Shown piece by piece: positions 8,134-34,649 of a stretch of 34,649 nt of DNA (the stretch's first letter is position 1; each line of letters opens with the position of its first letter). The stretch spans positions 1 through 34,649 of the forward strand of contig JAODNN010000160.1 of assembly GCA_025465355.1 (NCBI GenBank), given 5' to 3'. Position numbers and translations under genes: made by a program. The notes beneath the pieces are model-generated. The model searched no databases. It worked only from the letters and a program-made list of their open reading frames with translations, and was not told where the DNA came from. The DNA is from Blastococcus sp. (GTDB lineage: Bacteria > Actinomycetota > Actinomycetes > Mycobacteriales > Geodermatophilaceae).

Positions 8134-10533
8134 ATGACGGGAAACGCTTCGATGAGTGAGCCGGCGGCGCCACCGCGGGTGGCCACGCAGGTCGACGTCG
8201 TCGAGTCCTGGCCGGCCCGCGTCCACCGGCCGCTGGATCTGGTCCGTCTCACGAGTCTGGTCGTCGTCCTCTTCCTGCTCGTCGGCGTGGCCGTGGTCGC
8301 CCGGGGGACCAGTCGCGGGGCCAATGACGACCTCATGCGCCTGCTCAGCCACGTACCCGCACTCATCGGTCACGCGCTGAGGCTCGTGTCCGCGTTCGGT
8401 GCCCTCGCCCTCCCGCTGGCGCTGATCGTGCGAGAGGTCGTCCGTGGGTACCAGCGTCGTCTCATCGAGGCGGTGCTCACGGGGTTGCTCGCGATCGGGG
8501 TCGCCGAGGCGATCGATCGGGTGCTTGCGGCGTACCCGTCGGGCGCGCTCTACATCTCGTTGACCCACCTTCCCGGCGGCGGCGTGGCCACCCGGCCGCT
8601 GGACACCTATCTGACCGCACTCTTCGCGTTCACGGCGGTGCTGGGCATCGCGGATGACTGGCGGTGGCGCAGGCTGCTCGTCGCGGTGACCGCTGTGTAC
8701 GTGATCTCGGCCTTCACGACGACCCAGGCCTCGTTGCAATCCTTGGTGTTGAGTCCGGTCCTCGGGCTGATCGTCGGCATCGGGGTTCGCTACGTCGCGG
8801 GCAGGGTGAACGAGCGGCCGGACGGGCACCGGATCGCGACCGCTTTGGGACGGCGGAACATTCTGATCGGCCGCCTCGAGGCGATCGAGGCGGCCGACGA
8901 CCACCGCGAGTATCTGGCCACGACGCGAACCGGTGAGCAGCTCACGGTGCTGGTGTTCGATCGGGAGCTGATCGCGTCAGGCGCGGTCTACAACATGTAT
9001 CGGATCGTTCGGCTCCGCGCCGAGCTCGCGCCCTCGCCGAAGCTCTCCCTGGAGCGGGTGACCGAGCATCGCGCGTTGCTGGCGATGGCGGCGCAGGACA
9101 CCGGGGTCCGGACGCCTCAGCTGGTGGCGAGCCTCCCGTGCGGGCCGGACACGATCGTGCTCGCCTACGAGTTCGTCGTGGCCACCCCGCTGGCCGAACC
9201 CACCGAACAACAACTCGATGAACTGTGGAGCAGCCTCAACAGGCTGCATTTCCACAGCGTCACCCATCGCGGCCTGTCGGCGGGAAAGATCCGGGTCGAC
9301 CCGCTCGGCCACGTCGTCCTCCCCATCCCGGTCAACGGCGCGGTGTTCGCCAGCGATCTGCGGGTGAGCCTGGATCGGGTGCAACTTCTGATCACCACCG
9401 CGCAGCTGGCCGGCCCTGAGCGGGCGGTTCGCACCGCGCGCAGGCACCTGACGGACGACGAGCTGGCCAGCGTTCTTCCGGTGTTGCAGCCCATCGCGCT
9501 TCCCAGCTCGACCCGCCTGGCGGTCAAGCAGCACAAGGGACTGCTCGAGGCCGTGCGCGACGAGATCCAGAAGCAGACGAATCAGCGGCCGCCCGAGCTC
9601 GTCAACGTGGAGCGCTTCCGGCCGCGTGCGGTCCTGTCGCTCGTCGCGTTGATCATCGCCGGTTATCTGATCATCGGGCAGCTGGGCTCGGTCCACCTCG
9701 CGACCGTGCTCGCAGAGGCACGGTGGCAGTGGGTGCCACTCGTCCTGCTCGCGTCGGCTCTGACCTACGTGGCGGCCGCCCTGTCGCTGACCGGATACGT
9801 GCGCGAGAAGTTGTCCTTCGGACGTACCGTGCTCGCCCAGCTCGCGGCATCGTTCGCGGGGTTCGTCACGCCACCGGCCGTGGGTGGTCTCGCGCTCAAC
9901 GCTCGCTACCTGCAGAGGGCAGCGATCCCGCCCGCGGGCATCGCCACCAGCCTGGGGCTGGCCCAGGCCGTGAACGCCGCGTCGCACGTGGTTCTGCTCC
10001 TCGCGTTCGCTGCCGCGACGGGCGCCTCGGCGAGAGACCATCTCCCGGTCCCGGGCTGGGCTTTCGGCGTCCTGGCTGCCGTGGCCGGCCTGATCCTGCT
10101 CGCGGTGGCGATCCCCGGTGCGCGGCACTGGCTCTCCGCCCGGCTGCTGCCACCGCTGCGCCAGGCGCTGTCGAGGATGCTCGACCTCGTCACCACTCCC
10201 GCCAAGCTGGCCGAAGCACTGCTGGGCGCGCTCGCGCTGAACGCCGCCTACATCGCGGCCCTCTGGTTCTCGGTGCGCGCGTTCGACGGCCCGATCAGCA
10301 TCCTGGCGGCGGCCGTGGTCTACCTGACCGGTGCGGCTATCGGATCCGTCGCGCCGACACCTGGCGGGCTCGGCGCCGTCGAAGTGGCCCTGTCCACGGG
10401 CCTGGCCGCTGTCGGCGTGCCCGGCACGGCGGCGGTGAGCGCCGTGCTGCTGTTCCGGCTCGCGACCTTCTGGCTGCCCGTCCCGCTCGGCTGGGTGGCC
10501 CTGCGCTGGCTACGAGACCGCGGGGCCGTCTAG
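8134..10533 (+). CDS. Membrane protein: kinase-like (degenerate) domain fused to MprF-type flippase domain
   Basis: This 799-residue protein has an N-terminal block of about six membrane segments (residues ~25-220), a soluble central domain (~225-490) and a C-terminal block of about eight segments. The last block resembles the lysylphosphatidylglycerol synthetase/flippase transmembrane family (UPF0104/MprF-like), including GSVAPTPGGLGAVEVALS near the C terminus. The central domain resembles an ABC1/Rio-type lipid-kinase fold. However, the catalytic-loop HRDxxxxN reads HRG....K (residues 378-385) and the DFG position reads IPV (398-400), so it is probably a pseudokinase. The ATG at 8134 and an alternative ATG at 8152 are both plausible. 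It is divergent from the MarR operon. Lipid translocation is the likely role, and the substrate is unknown. The gene ends in TAG. Confidence 0.85.
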   Translation: MTGNASMSEPAAPPRVATQVDVVESWPARVHRPLDLVRLTSLVVVLFLLVGVAVVARGTSRGANDDLMRLLSHVPALIGHALRLVSAFGALALPLALIVREVVRGYQRRLIEAVLTGLLAIGVAEAIDRVLAAYPSGALYISLTHLPGGGVATRPLDTYLTALFAFTAVLGIADDWRWRRLLVAVTAVYVISAFTTTQASLQSLVLSPVLGLIVGIGVRYVAGRVNERPDGHRIATALGRRNILIGRLEAIEAADDHREYLATTRTGEQLTVLVFDRELIASGAVYNMYRIVRLRAELAPSPKLSLERVTEHRALLAMAAQDTGVRTPQLVASLPCGPDTIVLAYEFVVATPLAEPTEQQLDELWSSLNRLHFHSVTHRGLSAGKIRVDPLGHVVLPIPVNGAVFASDLRVSLDRVQLLITTAQLAGPERAVRTARRHLTDDELASVLPVLQPIALPSSTRLAVKQHKGLLEAVRDEIQKQTNQRPPELVNVERFRPRAVLSLVALIIAGYLIIGQLGSVHLATVLAEARWQWVPLVLLASALTYVAAALSLTGYVREKLSFGRTVLAQLAASFAGFVTPPAVGGLALNARYLQRAAIPPAGIATSLGLAQAVNAASHVVLLLAFAAATGASARDHLPVPGWAFGVLAAVAGLILLAVAIPGARHWLSARLLPPLRQALSRMLDLVTTPAKLAEALLGALALNAAYIAALWFSVRAFDGPISILAAAVVYLTGAAIGSVAPTPGGLGAVEVALSTGLAAVGVPGTAAVSAVLLFRLATFWLPVPLGWVALRWLRDRGAV

Positions 10534-31437: not shown

Positions 31438-34400
31438 GTGCCTGACGTGAAGACCTGGCTCGACTCCTGGCCGGTGTACAGGCAGCTGACCGGCCCCGAT
31501 CCGCTCGGCCGCGGCAAGGCGGCGCGCAGCAAGGCGACCGACCACCTGGTTGCCCGTACCGCCACGGCCGACCGCGTCGTCCAGAGCGTCTGCCCCTACT
31601 GCGCGGTCGGGTGCGGGCAGAAGGTGTTCGTCAAGGACGAGAAGGTCGTCCAGATCGAGGGCGACCCCGATTCGCCGATCAGCCGCGGTCGGCTTTGCCC
31701 GAAGGGCAGCGCCAGCAAGTCACTGGTGACCAGCCCGACCCGCGTCACCACGGTCAAGTACCGCCGTCCATACGGGACGGAGTGGGAAGACCTCGACCTC
31801 GACACGGCGATGGAGATGATCGCCGACCGCGTGCTCGACGCCCGCCGGAAGGGCTGGCAGGACGAGGACGGCGGCAAGCGCGTCAATCGCACCATGGGGA
31901 TAGCGAGCCTCGGAGGGGCAACCCTCGACAACGAGGAGAACTACCTCATGAAGAAGCTCTACACGGCCATGGGCGCGGTCCAGGTCGAGAACCAGGCCCG
32001 GATATAGCACTCCTCCACGGTGCCCGGTCTGGGTACCTCGTTCGGTCGTGGCGGCGCCACGAACTTCCAGCAGGACCTCTCGAACTCCGACTGCATCGTC
32101 ATCGAGGGTTCGAACATGGCGGAGTGCCACCCCGTGGGCTTCCAGTGGGTGATGGAGGCCAAGGCCCGCGGCGCGAAGGTCATCCACATCGACCCGCGGT
32201 TCACCCGCACGAGCGCCGTCGCCGACCTGCACGTGCCGCTGCGGGCCGGGAGCGACATCGCCTTCCTCGGCGGGCTGATCAAGTACGTCCTGGACAACGA
32301 GCTGTACTTCAAGGAGTACGTGCTCGCCTACACCAACGCCGCGGCCCTGCTGCGCGAGGACTTCCAGGACACCGAGGACCTCGACGGCCTCTTCTCCGGC
32401 TTCGACCCGGAGAAGAAGCACTACGACGAGACGTCCTGGGAGTACGAGGGCGATCCGGTGCCCTCCGCCGCCGGCGAGCGCGGCCTCGACGAGCCCGCGG
32501 GCGGTTCCAGGACCTCGGGGGCCGAAGGCCGACAGGCCGGCCAGCACGGCCCCGACGTGCGCGACGCCAGCCAGCACGAGGCGGCCGGCAGCGGTGGCCC
32601 GACCGTGCGGGTGAAGGCGAAGCGCGACGAGACCCTGCAGCACCCGCGCACCGTGTTCCAGGTGCTCAAGCGGCATTTCTCCCGCTACACCCCGGAGATG
32701 GTGGCCGACGTCTGCGGCGTGGAGCCCGAGGCGTTCCTGCAGGTGGCCGAGTGGATCACCGCCAACAGCGGCCGCGACCGGACGACGGCGTTCGTCTACT
32801 CGGTCGGCTGGACGCAGCACTCGGTGGGGGCGCAGTACATCCGGACGGCGTCGATCCTGCAGGCGCTGCTGGGCAACATCGGCCGTCCCGGCGGCGGGAT
32901 CATGTCGCTGCGCGGGCACGCCAGCATCCAGGGGTCCACAGACATCACGACCCTGTTCAACCTGCTGCCCGGCTACCTGGTCATGCCGCACGCCGCGCAG
33001 CACGAGACGCTGGACGACTACTGCGCGCAGAGCAAGAACACGGCGGGCTTCTGGGGGAACATGCCGTCGTACATCGTCAGCCTGCTGAAGGCCTACTGGG
33101 GTGACGCGGCACAGCCGGAGAACGACTTCTGCTTCGACTACCTGCCGCGGGTCAACGGCGACCACAGCTCCTACCGCACGGTCGCCGACATGATCGAGGG
33201 CAAGGTTCCCGGCTACTTCCTGGTCGGGGAGAACCCGGCGGTCGGGCACTCCAACGGCCGGATGCAGCGCTTCGGGCTGGCGAACCTGGAATGGCTCGTC
33301 GTCCGTGACCTGCAGATGATCGAGTCGGCCACCTTCTGGAAGAACGCGCCGGAGATCGAGACCGGCGAGCTGGTCACCGAGCAGATCGCCACCGAGGTGT
33401 TCTTCCTGCCCGCCGCCTCGCACGTGGAGAAGGCCGGCACCTTCACCCAGACGCAGCGCCTGCTGCAGTGGCGGCACAAGGCCGTCGAGCCGCCGGGTGA
33501 CTCCCGCAGCGACCTCTGGTTCTACTTCCACCTGGGCCGGCTGTTGAAGCAGCGGCTGGCCGGGTCGACCGACCCGCGCGATCGTCCCCTGCTGGATCTG
33601 GCGTGGGACTACCCGACCGAGGGCCCGACTGCCGACCCCGATCCGGAGGCGGTGCTGCGTGAGATCAACGGCTGGGGCGCGGACGGCAAGGCGCTGTCGG
33701 CCTACACCGAGATGAAGGACGACGGCTCGACCGTTGGCGGCTGCTGGATCTACACCGGTGTCTACGCCGACGAGGTGAACCAGGCCGCCCGGCGCAAGCC
33801 CGGCCGGGAACAGAGCCTCGTGGCGCCGGAATGGGGGTGGGCGTGGCCGGCCAACCGCCGGATCCTGTACAACCGCGCGTCCGCCGACCCCGACGGCAAG
33901 CCGTGGAGCGAGCGCAAGAAGTACGTCTGGTGGGACCAGTCGGAAGGGAAGTGGACCGGCGAGGACGTGCCCGACTTCGAGCCGAAGAAGCGGCCCGACT
34001 ACGTGCCGCCGGAGGGGGCCACGGCGCAGGACGCGATCGCCGGCACCGACCCGTTCATCATGCAGAGCGACGGCAAGGCCTGGCTGCACGCGCCGGCGGG
34101 CCTGGCGGACGGGCCGATGCCCGCGCACTACGAGCCGGCCGAGTCGCCGGCACGCAACCTGCTGTACGGGGTGCAGTCGAACCCGGCCAAGGAGGAGCTC
34201 GAGGCGGCCTACAACCGGAGCAACCCGCCGGAGAGCGACGTCTACCCGTACGTGTTCACGACCTACCGGCTGACCGAGCACCACACGGCCGGCGGGATGA
34301 GCCGCACCCTGCCGTACCTGGCCGAGCTGCAGCCGGAGTTCTTCGTGGAGGTCAGCCCGCAGCTGGCCGAGGAGCGGGGCCTGGAGAACGGTGGCTGGGC

Positions 34401-34649
34401 CACCGTCGTCACGGCGCGGGCGGCGGTGGAGGCACGGGTGCTGGTCACCGAGCGGATCCGGCCGCTGAAGGTGGCAGGGCGGATCGTGCACCAGGTCGGC
34501 GTCCCCTATCACTGGGGTTCCGAGGGCATCTCCACCGGCGACTCGGGGAACGACCTGACCGGCGTGGTCATGGACCCGAACGTGCACATCCAGGAGTCGA
34601 AGGCGGCCACCTGCGACATCCAGCCGGGACGCCGTCCCCGTGGGCCGGC
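31438..34649 (+). CDS. fdnG: Formate dehydrogenase catalytic subunit, selenoprotein with in-frame UAG (partial at window end)
   Basis: This is the molybdenum/tungsten bis-MGD enzyme that oxidises formate to CO2. The frame from GTG 31438 has an N-terminal [4Fe-4S] site (CPYCAVGCG, Cys52, 55, 59, plus Cys87). It reaches NQARI, meets UAG at codon 190, and continues HSSTVPGLGTSFGRGGATN. In the family, selenocysteine or cysteine sits between NQAR(V/I) and H. I translated codon by codon to the window edge and found no further stop (~1070 codons). MopB segments follow: IEGSNMAECHPVGFQW, VIHIDPRFTRTSAVADLHVP, VGWTQHSVGAQYIRT, GNIGRPGGGIMSLRGHASIQ and GENPAVGHSN. The C-terminal VPYHWGSEGISTGDSGNDLT is also present, so little is missing. 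There is no twin-arginine signal, so a cytoplasmic enzyme is likely. A polar Gly/Ala/Ser-rich linker lies at ~residues 339-393. GTG 31447 is an alternative start. Confidence 0.93.
32005..32007 (+). other. UAG codon read as selenocysteine (recoded stop)
   Basis: This TAG sits in the formate dehydrogenase frame at residue 190, exactly at the active-site selenocysteine position (family pattern NQAR-V/I-U-H). A Cys (TGC) or canonical Sec (TGA) codon would need two base changes to become TAG. The SECIS-like hairpin follows at the correct distance. Selenocysteine insertion is inferred. What the sequence shows is the codon, its place and the hairpin. Confidence 0.88.
32019..32037 (+). promoter_or_regulatory. 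Bacterial SECIS hairpin
   Basis: GGTGCCC (32019-32025) pairs with GGGTACC (32031-32037), giving seven base pairs including one G-U, around the loop GGTCT (32026-32030). The stem begins 11 bases after the UAG. In E. coli fdhF the SelB-binding hairpin also starts 11 bases after UGA and has the same GGUCU loop. The hairpin is inside the coding sequence, as is usual in bacteria. Confidence 0.88.

Follow-up and report, generated by a model that had tools for sequence, protein, structure and literature searches.

The analyzed stretch of DNA (hereafter the window; 34,649 nucleotides) constitutes the entire contig JAODNN010000160.1 of a 4.90-Mb, 195-contig genome of Blastococcus sp. It carries a gene for the alpha subunit of a formate dehydrogenase (FDH) which, because the window is the whole contig, is lacking its 3' end. 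The reading frame extends from GTG at position 31438 to the end of the window (1070 residues) and, as a first-pass annotation of this DNA had recognized, is broken only by a TAG at codon 190 (positions 32005-32007; NQARI-TAG-HSSTV), the site at which homologues carry selenocysteine (Sec) or cysteine. The start may alternatively be placed at GTG 31447, and several homologues align from residue 3 or 4 only. The following features were distinguished:

31438..32004, + strand: 5' part of the FDH alpha-subunit gene (covering the Fe4S4 domain and the first part of the molybdopterin domain), from GTG 31438 or 31447, based on the ORF, Pfam and NF041513
32002..32004, + strand: AUA (Ile) codon immediately 5' of the Sec codon, the same in 114/114 family sites
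32005..32007, + strand: UAG, codon 190, predicted to be read as selenocysteine; TAG in 115/115 readable family sites
32008..34649, + strand: remainder of the FDH frame, open at the contig end and 3' incomplete, based on the ORF, Pfam, NF041513 and homologues
32019..32037, + strand: bacterial-type SECIS hairpin with a 7-bp stem and the loop GGUCU, based on the fold and on covariation in 99 distinct sequences

A profile search with the read-through product, in which the UAG was entered as Cys, revealed that residues 7-1070 score 1962.6 bits against the actinobacterial formate dehydrogenase family NF041513 of NCBIfam (cut-off 1400), and that the product contains three molybdopterin-oxidoreductase Pfam domains. 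The part following the TAG shares 86% protein identity with its nearest homologue, with 86, 61 and 208 differences at codon positions 1, 2 and 3, respectively. ORF calling with table 11 cuts the gene into a 189-aa ORF and an 876-aa ORF that is open at the contig end. It had been anticipated that a standard pipeline would return a 189-residue protein and an unstarted fragment; the first half of this forecast proved accurate, but the second ORF can start at GTG 32020. A second FDH copy, found on another contig (C150) of the same Blastococcus genome, has TAG at the same site.

Bacterial Sec insertion competes with termination, and it is therefore conceivable that the UAG is readable with the help of the hairpin while most of the product is a truncated form of 189 residues, with recoding as a rare regulatory event. 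This is considered unlikely, since the Molybdopterin and Molydop_binding domains are located wholly or mostly 3' of the UAG and the downstream frame is under constraint.

The presence of a SECIS hairpin behind the TAG, also proposed in the first-pass annotation, was borne out at positions 32019-32037 (GGUGCCC-GGUCU-GGGUACC). As a single fold this hairpin is unremarkable: four stretches gave z-values of -1.40, -0.16, -1.31 and -0.48, i.e. not stronger than shuffled sequence, and the window contains no match to Rfam families over their cut-offs. It is nevertheless supported by covariation within the family. Among 99 distinct family sequences, the pair +17/+29, both members of which are third codon positions, is G-U in 46, C-G in 34, G-C in 14 and U-A in 5, so that it pairs in 99/99 sequences, compared with an average of 50, and never more than 66, in shuffles (both shuffles and pair counts treat the sequences as unrelated). 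In the same set, the outermost pair of the hairpin shows 4 mismatches and the third pair 1, and a shift of one arm by 1-3 bases reduces the paired fraction from 0.993 to 0.612 or less.

A search of the Blastococcus genome with the Rfam tRNA-Sec model yielded 6 matches, one of which is over the cut-off (66.8 bits, cut-off 47) and has the anticodon CUA. This match spans all 91 positions of the model, and no other Rfam family matches the locus; the remaining five listed matches correspond to tRNAs for Ser, Leu, Ser, Tyr and Gly, and no UCA tRNA-Sec was found among the model matches in this genome (95.35% complete). On the same contig (C164), the tRNA-Sec(CUA) gene is adjoined by selA (424.1 bits against TIGR00474, cut-off 267.9) and selB (282.7 bits, NCBIfam cut-off 242.25), both on the same strand as the tRNA gene, and selD (386.9 bits, NCBIfam cut-off 125) lies close by. 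The genome thus holds selB, a single selC over the cut-off, of the CUA type, and both other sel genes, which, together with the family-wide TAG described below, supports the earlier assignment of the FDH gene to a recoded UAG-Sec system. Of the 90 stretches found in the database scan presented below, the named sel locus closest to this one comes from a Blastococcus metagenome-assembled genome (MAG) (82.4% identity over 4.9 kb). UAG still acts as a stop codon in this organism: in 27 genes hand-picked from the ORF lists, UGA terminates 25 and UAG 2.

ARAGORN names the CUA tRNA "tRNA-Pyl", a label that is due to its CUA anticodon and that would be in line with the insertion of pyrrolysine, or of another amino acid via a general amber suppressor, at the UAG. 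Such a decoding appears very improbable, given that the same tRNA scores 66.8 bits as a complete tRNA-Sec and is encoded together with selA, selB and selD, and that outside the family the counterpart of this UAG is TGA (Sec) or a Cys codon in all 46 sites that could be read (of 47).

Codon and anticodon were then compared within and outside the family Geodermatophilaceae. The tRNA-Sec(CUA) pattern is present in 101 of 112 genomes of the family. The 11 genomes without it comprise nine from three genera (g5, g6 and g7), in which no full-length match to this FDH was found, and two incomplete ones (G097 and G098), the FDH genes of which still have TAG. At least 119 FDH loci of the family were scanned (the window included), and TAG occupies the Sec site in 115/115 readable cases; left out were one locus on a contig ending 2 bases past the match, before the site (L126), and three pieces of a single genome, G079 (L294-L296), of which L294 and L295 are without the stretch bearing the site and L296 comes from the 3' part of the gene. 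In other families of the order, 46 of 47 FDH sites (7 loci and 40 short stretches) were readable, with TGA in 41, a Cys codon in 5 and TAG in 0; the remaining one, from G209 (L402), an FDH for which one TGA and one TAG are recorded, gave no motif and was left out. The codon is therefore TAG in all readable sites of relatives within the family and TGA or Cys outside it, and random disabling mutations are not what the relatives show.

This distribution bears on the idea that the TAG is a disabling mutation, i.e. that the gene is a pseudogene or contains a sequencing error. Either could account for a single premature stop codon in a gene located at the end of a contig; yet the same TAG recurs in every readable family site across many assemblies, the frames on both sides of it are constrained and a matching tRNA is present, and hence we regard this option as hardly credible.

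With respect to the anticodon, a tRNA-Sec over the cut-off was detected in 224 of 298 genomes of the order. All of the best 30 tRNA-Sec loci of the order (29 from other families and one from the Geodermatophilus-group genome G058, see below) have UCA, in a sample of best-scoring loci, the choice of which favours UCA. When 84,980 species genomes were scanned for the tRNA-Sec(CUA) pattern, 90 stretches emerged. By their labels, 86 of these belong to a single family (Geodermatophilus, Blastococcus, Modestobacter, Klenkia, Goekera, Trujillonella or "Geodermatophilaceae bacterium"). Three more (L029, L037 and L063) are labelled otherwise but carry an almost identical tRNA, and the last one, L098, is of a different kind. 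Codon and anticodon were thus directly observed to agree both within and outside the family, and the codon switch appears to follow the border of Geodermatophilaceae, as far as the sites have been read. Since UGA-using relatives have a hairpin at the same position, with a similar stem, the codon changed and the hairpin stayed. On these genomic grounds, codon and anticodon very probably changed together, from UGA to UAG, with the SECIS left in place, the UAG system being a derivative of the UGA system.

The gene very probably (with a probability of roughly 0.96) encodes an actinobacterial FDH catalytic subunit whose active-site Sec is specified by UAG via tRNA-Sec(CUA), the known Geodermatophilaceae variant, here in a Blastococcus-like member of the family. 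According to the proposed mechanism, tRNA-Sec(CUA) would be charged with serine, and SelA would convert the Ser-charged tRNA to Sec-tRNA with selenophosphate from SelD. SelB would then carry the Sec-tRNA, bind the hairpin just 3' of the UAG and compete with release factor 1 at this codon, while other UAG codons would still terminate, and the full-length protein would presumably be made.

The 2016 study of Mukai and co-workers (Angew Chem 55:5337) is said to name Geodermatophilus and Blastococcus as the UAG-Sec genera and to have shown UAG-Sec in relatives by 75Se labelling or mass spectrometry. In excerpts of a later survey (Santesmasses et al. 2017, PMC5330540), UAG at the FDH Sec site and tRNA-Sec CUA in Geodermatophilaceae are cited from Mukai et al. 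2016, and three genomes of the family are described as having tRNA-Sec CUA as well as FDH and UGSC selenoproteins; an AhpC with TAG is also described. More generally, the portions consulted of Mukai 2021 (PMC8124441) state that some bacteria use UAG or Cys codons for Sec, and those of a 2023 review state that Sec codons include ten sense codons in addition to UAG and UAA; in the part of the main text consulted of a 2026 review (PMC13188914), the strings "Geodermatophil" and "Coriobacteri" are absent. UAG-Sec in Geodermatophilaceae is therefore already published and the window is one more case.

Compared with the system of Mukai et al. 2016, the present one has the same UAG at the FDH Sec site and the same tRNA-Sec CUA, but in another species and gene copy; the family-wide count, the evidence that the hairpin covaries across the codon switch and the invariance of the AUA are added here. 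The UAG-Sec AhpC of Blastococcus saxobsidens (excerpts of PMC5330540) likewise combines UAG, a downstream bSECIS and tRNA-Sec CUA, but it is a peroxiredoxin and not an FDH. Canonical UGA-Sec FDHs of other actinobacterial families are the same protein (the nearest is 74% identical), differing in the UGA codon, in the UCA anticodon of tRNA-Sec and in the preceding Ile codon, which is mostly AUU (36/41).

The codon immediately 5' of the TAG is AUA in 114/114 full-length family sites. Of the 188 Ile codons counted in 16 other genes of the window, one is AUA, as are 2 of the 33 in this FDH. In other families, the codon preceding the Sec UGA (41 sites) is AUU in 36, AUA in 4 and AUC in 1, and the codon preceding Cys in five Cys-type FDHs is GUG in three and GUC in two. 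The invariance may stem from common ancestry, yet synonymous drift in genomes that are GC-rich across the family should have broken AUA. Our guess is that the P-site codon could influence how SelB and release factor 1 compete. No report of an invariant AUA before UAG was found among the best 15-20 full-text matches, with most subscription papers outside the search.

The Geodermatophilus-group genome G058 contains a family-type CUA tRNA-Sec as well as a UCA tRNA-Sec (81.8 bits, contig C17), and so appears to hold both Sec tRNAs and two Sec codons in one cell. The UCA tRNA gene is located about 315 bases from an AhpD-like gene interrupted by TGA (CFY-TGA-MESH). No other gene more than 40% identical to the latter occurs among the matches listed for 112 family genomes (84 with a match), and the hairpin after its TGA is not better than in shuffled sequence. 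Contamination, including a chimeric contig, is a possible source of the UCA tRNA: it lies near the end of contig C17, the first 6 kb of which have a G+C of 0.61-0.68 (compared with 0.72-0.82 in a stretch of contig C11), and ISAs1, IS30 and IS21 transposases are encoded within 15 kb. This reading is weakened by the finding that 12 kb of the same 69-kb contig align at 81% to another genome of the genus; the 40-60 kb part of the contig aligns with other genomes of the genus.

We consider it likely that G058 acquired a foreign Sec unit, which it may use. When the UCA region was used as a query against plasmid DNA, five records were retrieved (Arthrobacter, Tsukamurella, Nonomuraea, Indioceanicola and Embleya), each match covering 7-11% of the query, at the tRNA end, with 78-83% identity; the two records inspected contain selB-selA-selD-fdh cassettes around the matching stretch. 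For the AhpD-like gene, 333 plasmid records gave only matches of less than 60% identity, and no match was confirmed in viral contigs. The co-occurrence of both Sec tRNAs in one genome was not reported in the best 15-20 full-text matches, as judged by title and beginning of abstract; priority is unsettled, subscription papers being mostly outside the search.

In three other genomes (G009, G085 and G005), weak AhpD-like matches with one internal TAG were noted (E-values of 1.3e-5 to 8.4e-4), which could be UAG selenoproteins or chance matches. A phage origin of tRNA-Sec(CUA) was also considered and rejected: two IMG/VR contigs show the pattern, but their tRNAs reach only the general tRNA family of Rfam and not tRNA-Sec. 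These two tRNAs may be amber suppressors and look unrelated.

The one different stretch of the database scan mentioned above comes from a Coriobacteriia MAG (1.5 Mb; genome G359, contig JAUNNF010000009.1), in which the only tRNA-Sec over the cut-off is CUA. Its gene comes after selA and selB, with selD (391.6 bits) downstream. The glycine-reductase operon of this MAG has TAG at the Sec sites of both GrdB (LTST-TAG-GTCTRCGA) and GrdA (ECFV-TAG-TSAGAM), and both proteins match their own families strongly. SECIS-like folds of this MAG are not better than those of shuffled sequence. In a set of 60 genomes (the MAG and its relatives), tRNA-Sec is over the cut-off in 32, and 29 further tRNA loci of the relatives, covering most of the matches over the cut-off, comprise 27 tRNA-Sec genes, all UCA, and two other tRNAs. 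Among 100 genomes searched for GrdB (the MAG and relatives), four others contain six full-length GrdB-like genes with one TGA each, against one TAG in the MAG, and three more gave partial, weak matches only. The MAG thus appears to represent a second, independent origin of UAG-Sec from UGA in a distant lineage, as suggested by the genes of a single MAG. UAG-Sec in Coriobacteriia was not reported in the best 15-20 full-text matches, again assessed by title and the start of the abstract and with most subscription papers outside the search, so that priority is unsettled here as well.

Avoidance of clashes, with Sec shifting to the less frequent stop codon, was also considered as a cause. This fits the Blastococcus genome, with its UGA to UAG ratio of 25 to 2 given above, but not the Coriobacteriia MAG, where, on one contig, 44 ORFs of 200 aa or more end with TAA in 29 cases, TAG in 13 (one being the GrdB Sec codon) and TGA in 2. 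Because UAG is commoner than UGA in the MAG, the idea was dropped as a general cause.

On balance, the evidence leans towards a broader picture, in which Sec would have switched from UGA to UAG on at least two occasions within Actinomycetota (in Geodermatophilaceae and in the Coriobacteriia MAG), one Geodermatophilus-group genome would combine its CUA system with an acquired UCA tRNA-Sec and thus two Sec codons in one cell, and the UAG of FDH would be locked to AUA, with the P-site codon tuning UAG decoding. In practical terms, a table-11 ORF list splits such UAG-Sec genes in two. The side results are worth more than the window itself: the comparison points to a clean codon-anticodon switch at the family border with the SECIS preserved, to an apparent second origin and to a genome seemingly with both Sec tRNAs. 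The transfer of a recoded codon to another stop codon may accordingly be tested directly in living relatives from either side of the switch.

The UAG selenocysteine (Sec) codon of the formate dehydrogenase (FDH) gene is directly preceded by the rare codon AUA (32002-32004), which is invariant among 114 sites of the Geodermatophilaceae; AUU predominates at this position in UGA-using relatives. A second FDH copy of the window's genome (G000:C150 near 30456, locus L170; 65-69% identical) also has TAG at the Sec site. Two FDH copies of genome G079 (L294 and L295, on contigs C12 and C4, respectively) lack the stretch holding the Sec codon and the SECIS hairpin, with different end points, reflecting either deletion or an assembly fault.

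Outside this family, UAG-Sec features were found in a Coriobacteriia MAG (contig JAUNNF010000009.1):
L098:7597-7693, tRNA-Sec, anticodon CUA
L206:5945-5947 and 10448-10450, TAG at the Sec sites of the glycine-reductase proteins GrdB and GrdA, respectively

The relatives that were read have, in contrast, a UCA anticodon and a TGA Sec codon; this is an apparently independent switch to UAG-Sec.

The Geodermatophilus-group genome G058 appears to carry both tRNA-Sec types, the CUA type of the Geodermatophilaceae and a UCA type, the latter close to an AhpD-like gene:
L145:1173-1263 (G058:C17), minus strand, tRNA-Sec, anticodon UCA
L145:1579-2157 (G058:C17), AhpD-like gene, TGA at the CxxC site

Weak AhpD-like matches, each with one internal TAG, could be additional UAG selenoproteins or chance:
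G009:C1:1292973-1293368
G085:C79:69418-69546
G005:C40:185981-186331

Two viral tRNAs with the CUA anticodon scored as ordinary tRNAs rather than as tRNA-Sec and are possibly phage amber suppressors:
L403:6364-6457, IMG/VR contig
L404:1928-2017, IMG/VR contig

The selB-selA-selD-fdh cassette was identified on two actinobacterial plasmids, one of them typed as conjugative:
L361, plasmid NZ_CP110115.1
L362, plasmid NZ_LR134459.1

In both cassettes a tRNA-Sec-like stretch sits between selA and selD. Judging from these plasmid-borne cassettes, Sec decoding may be mobile.
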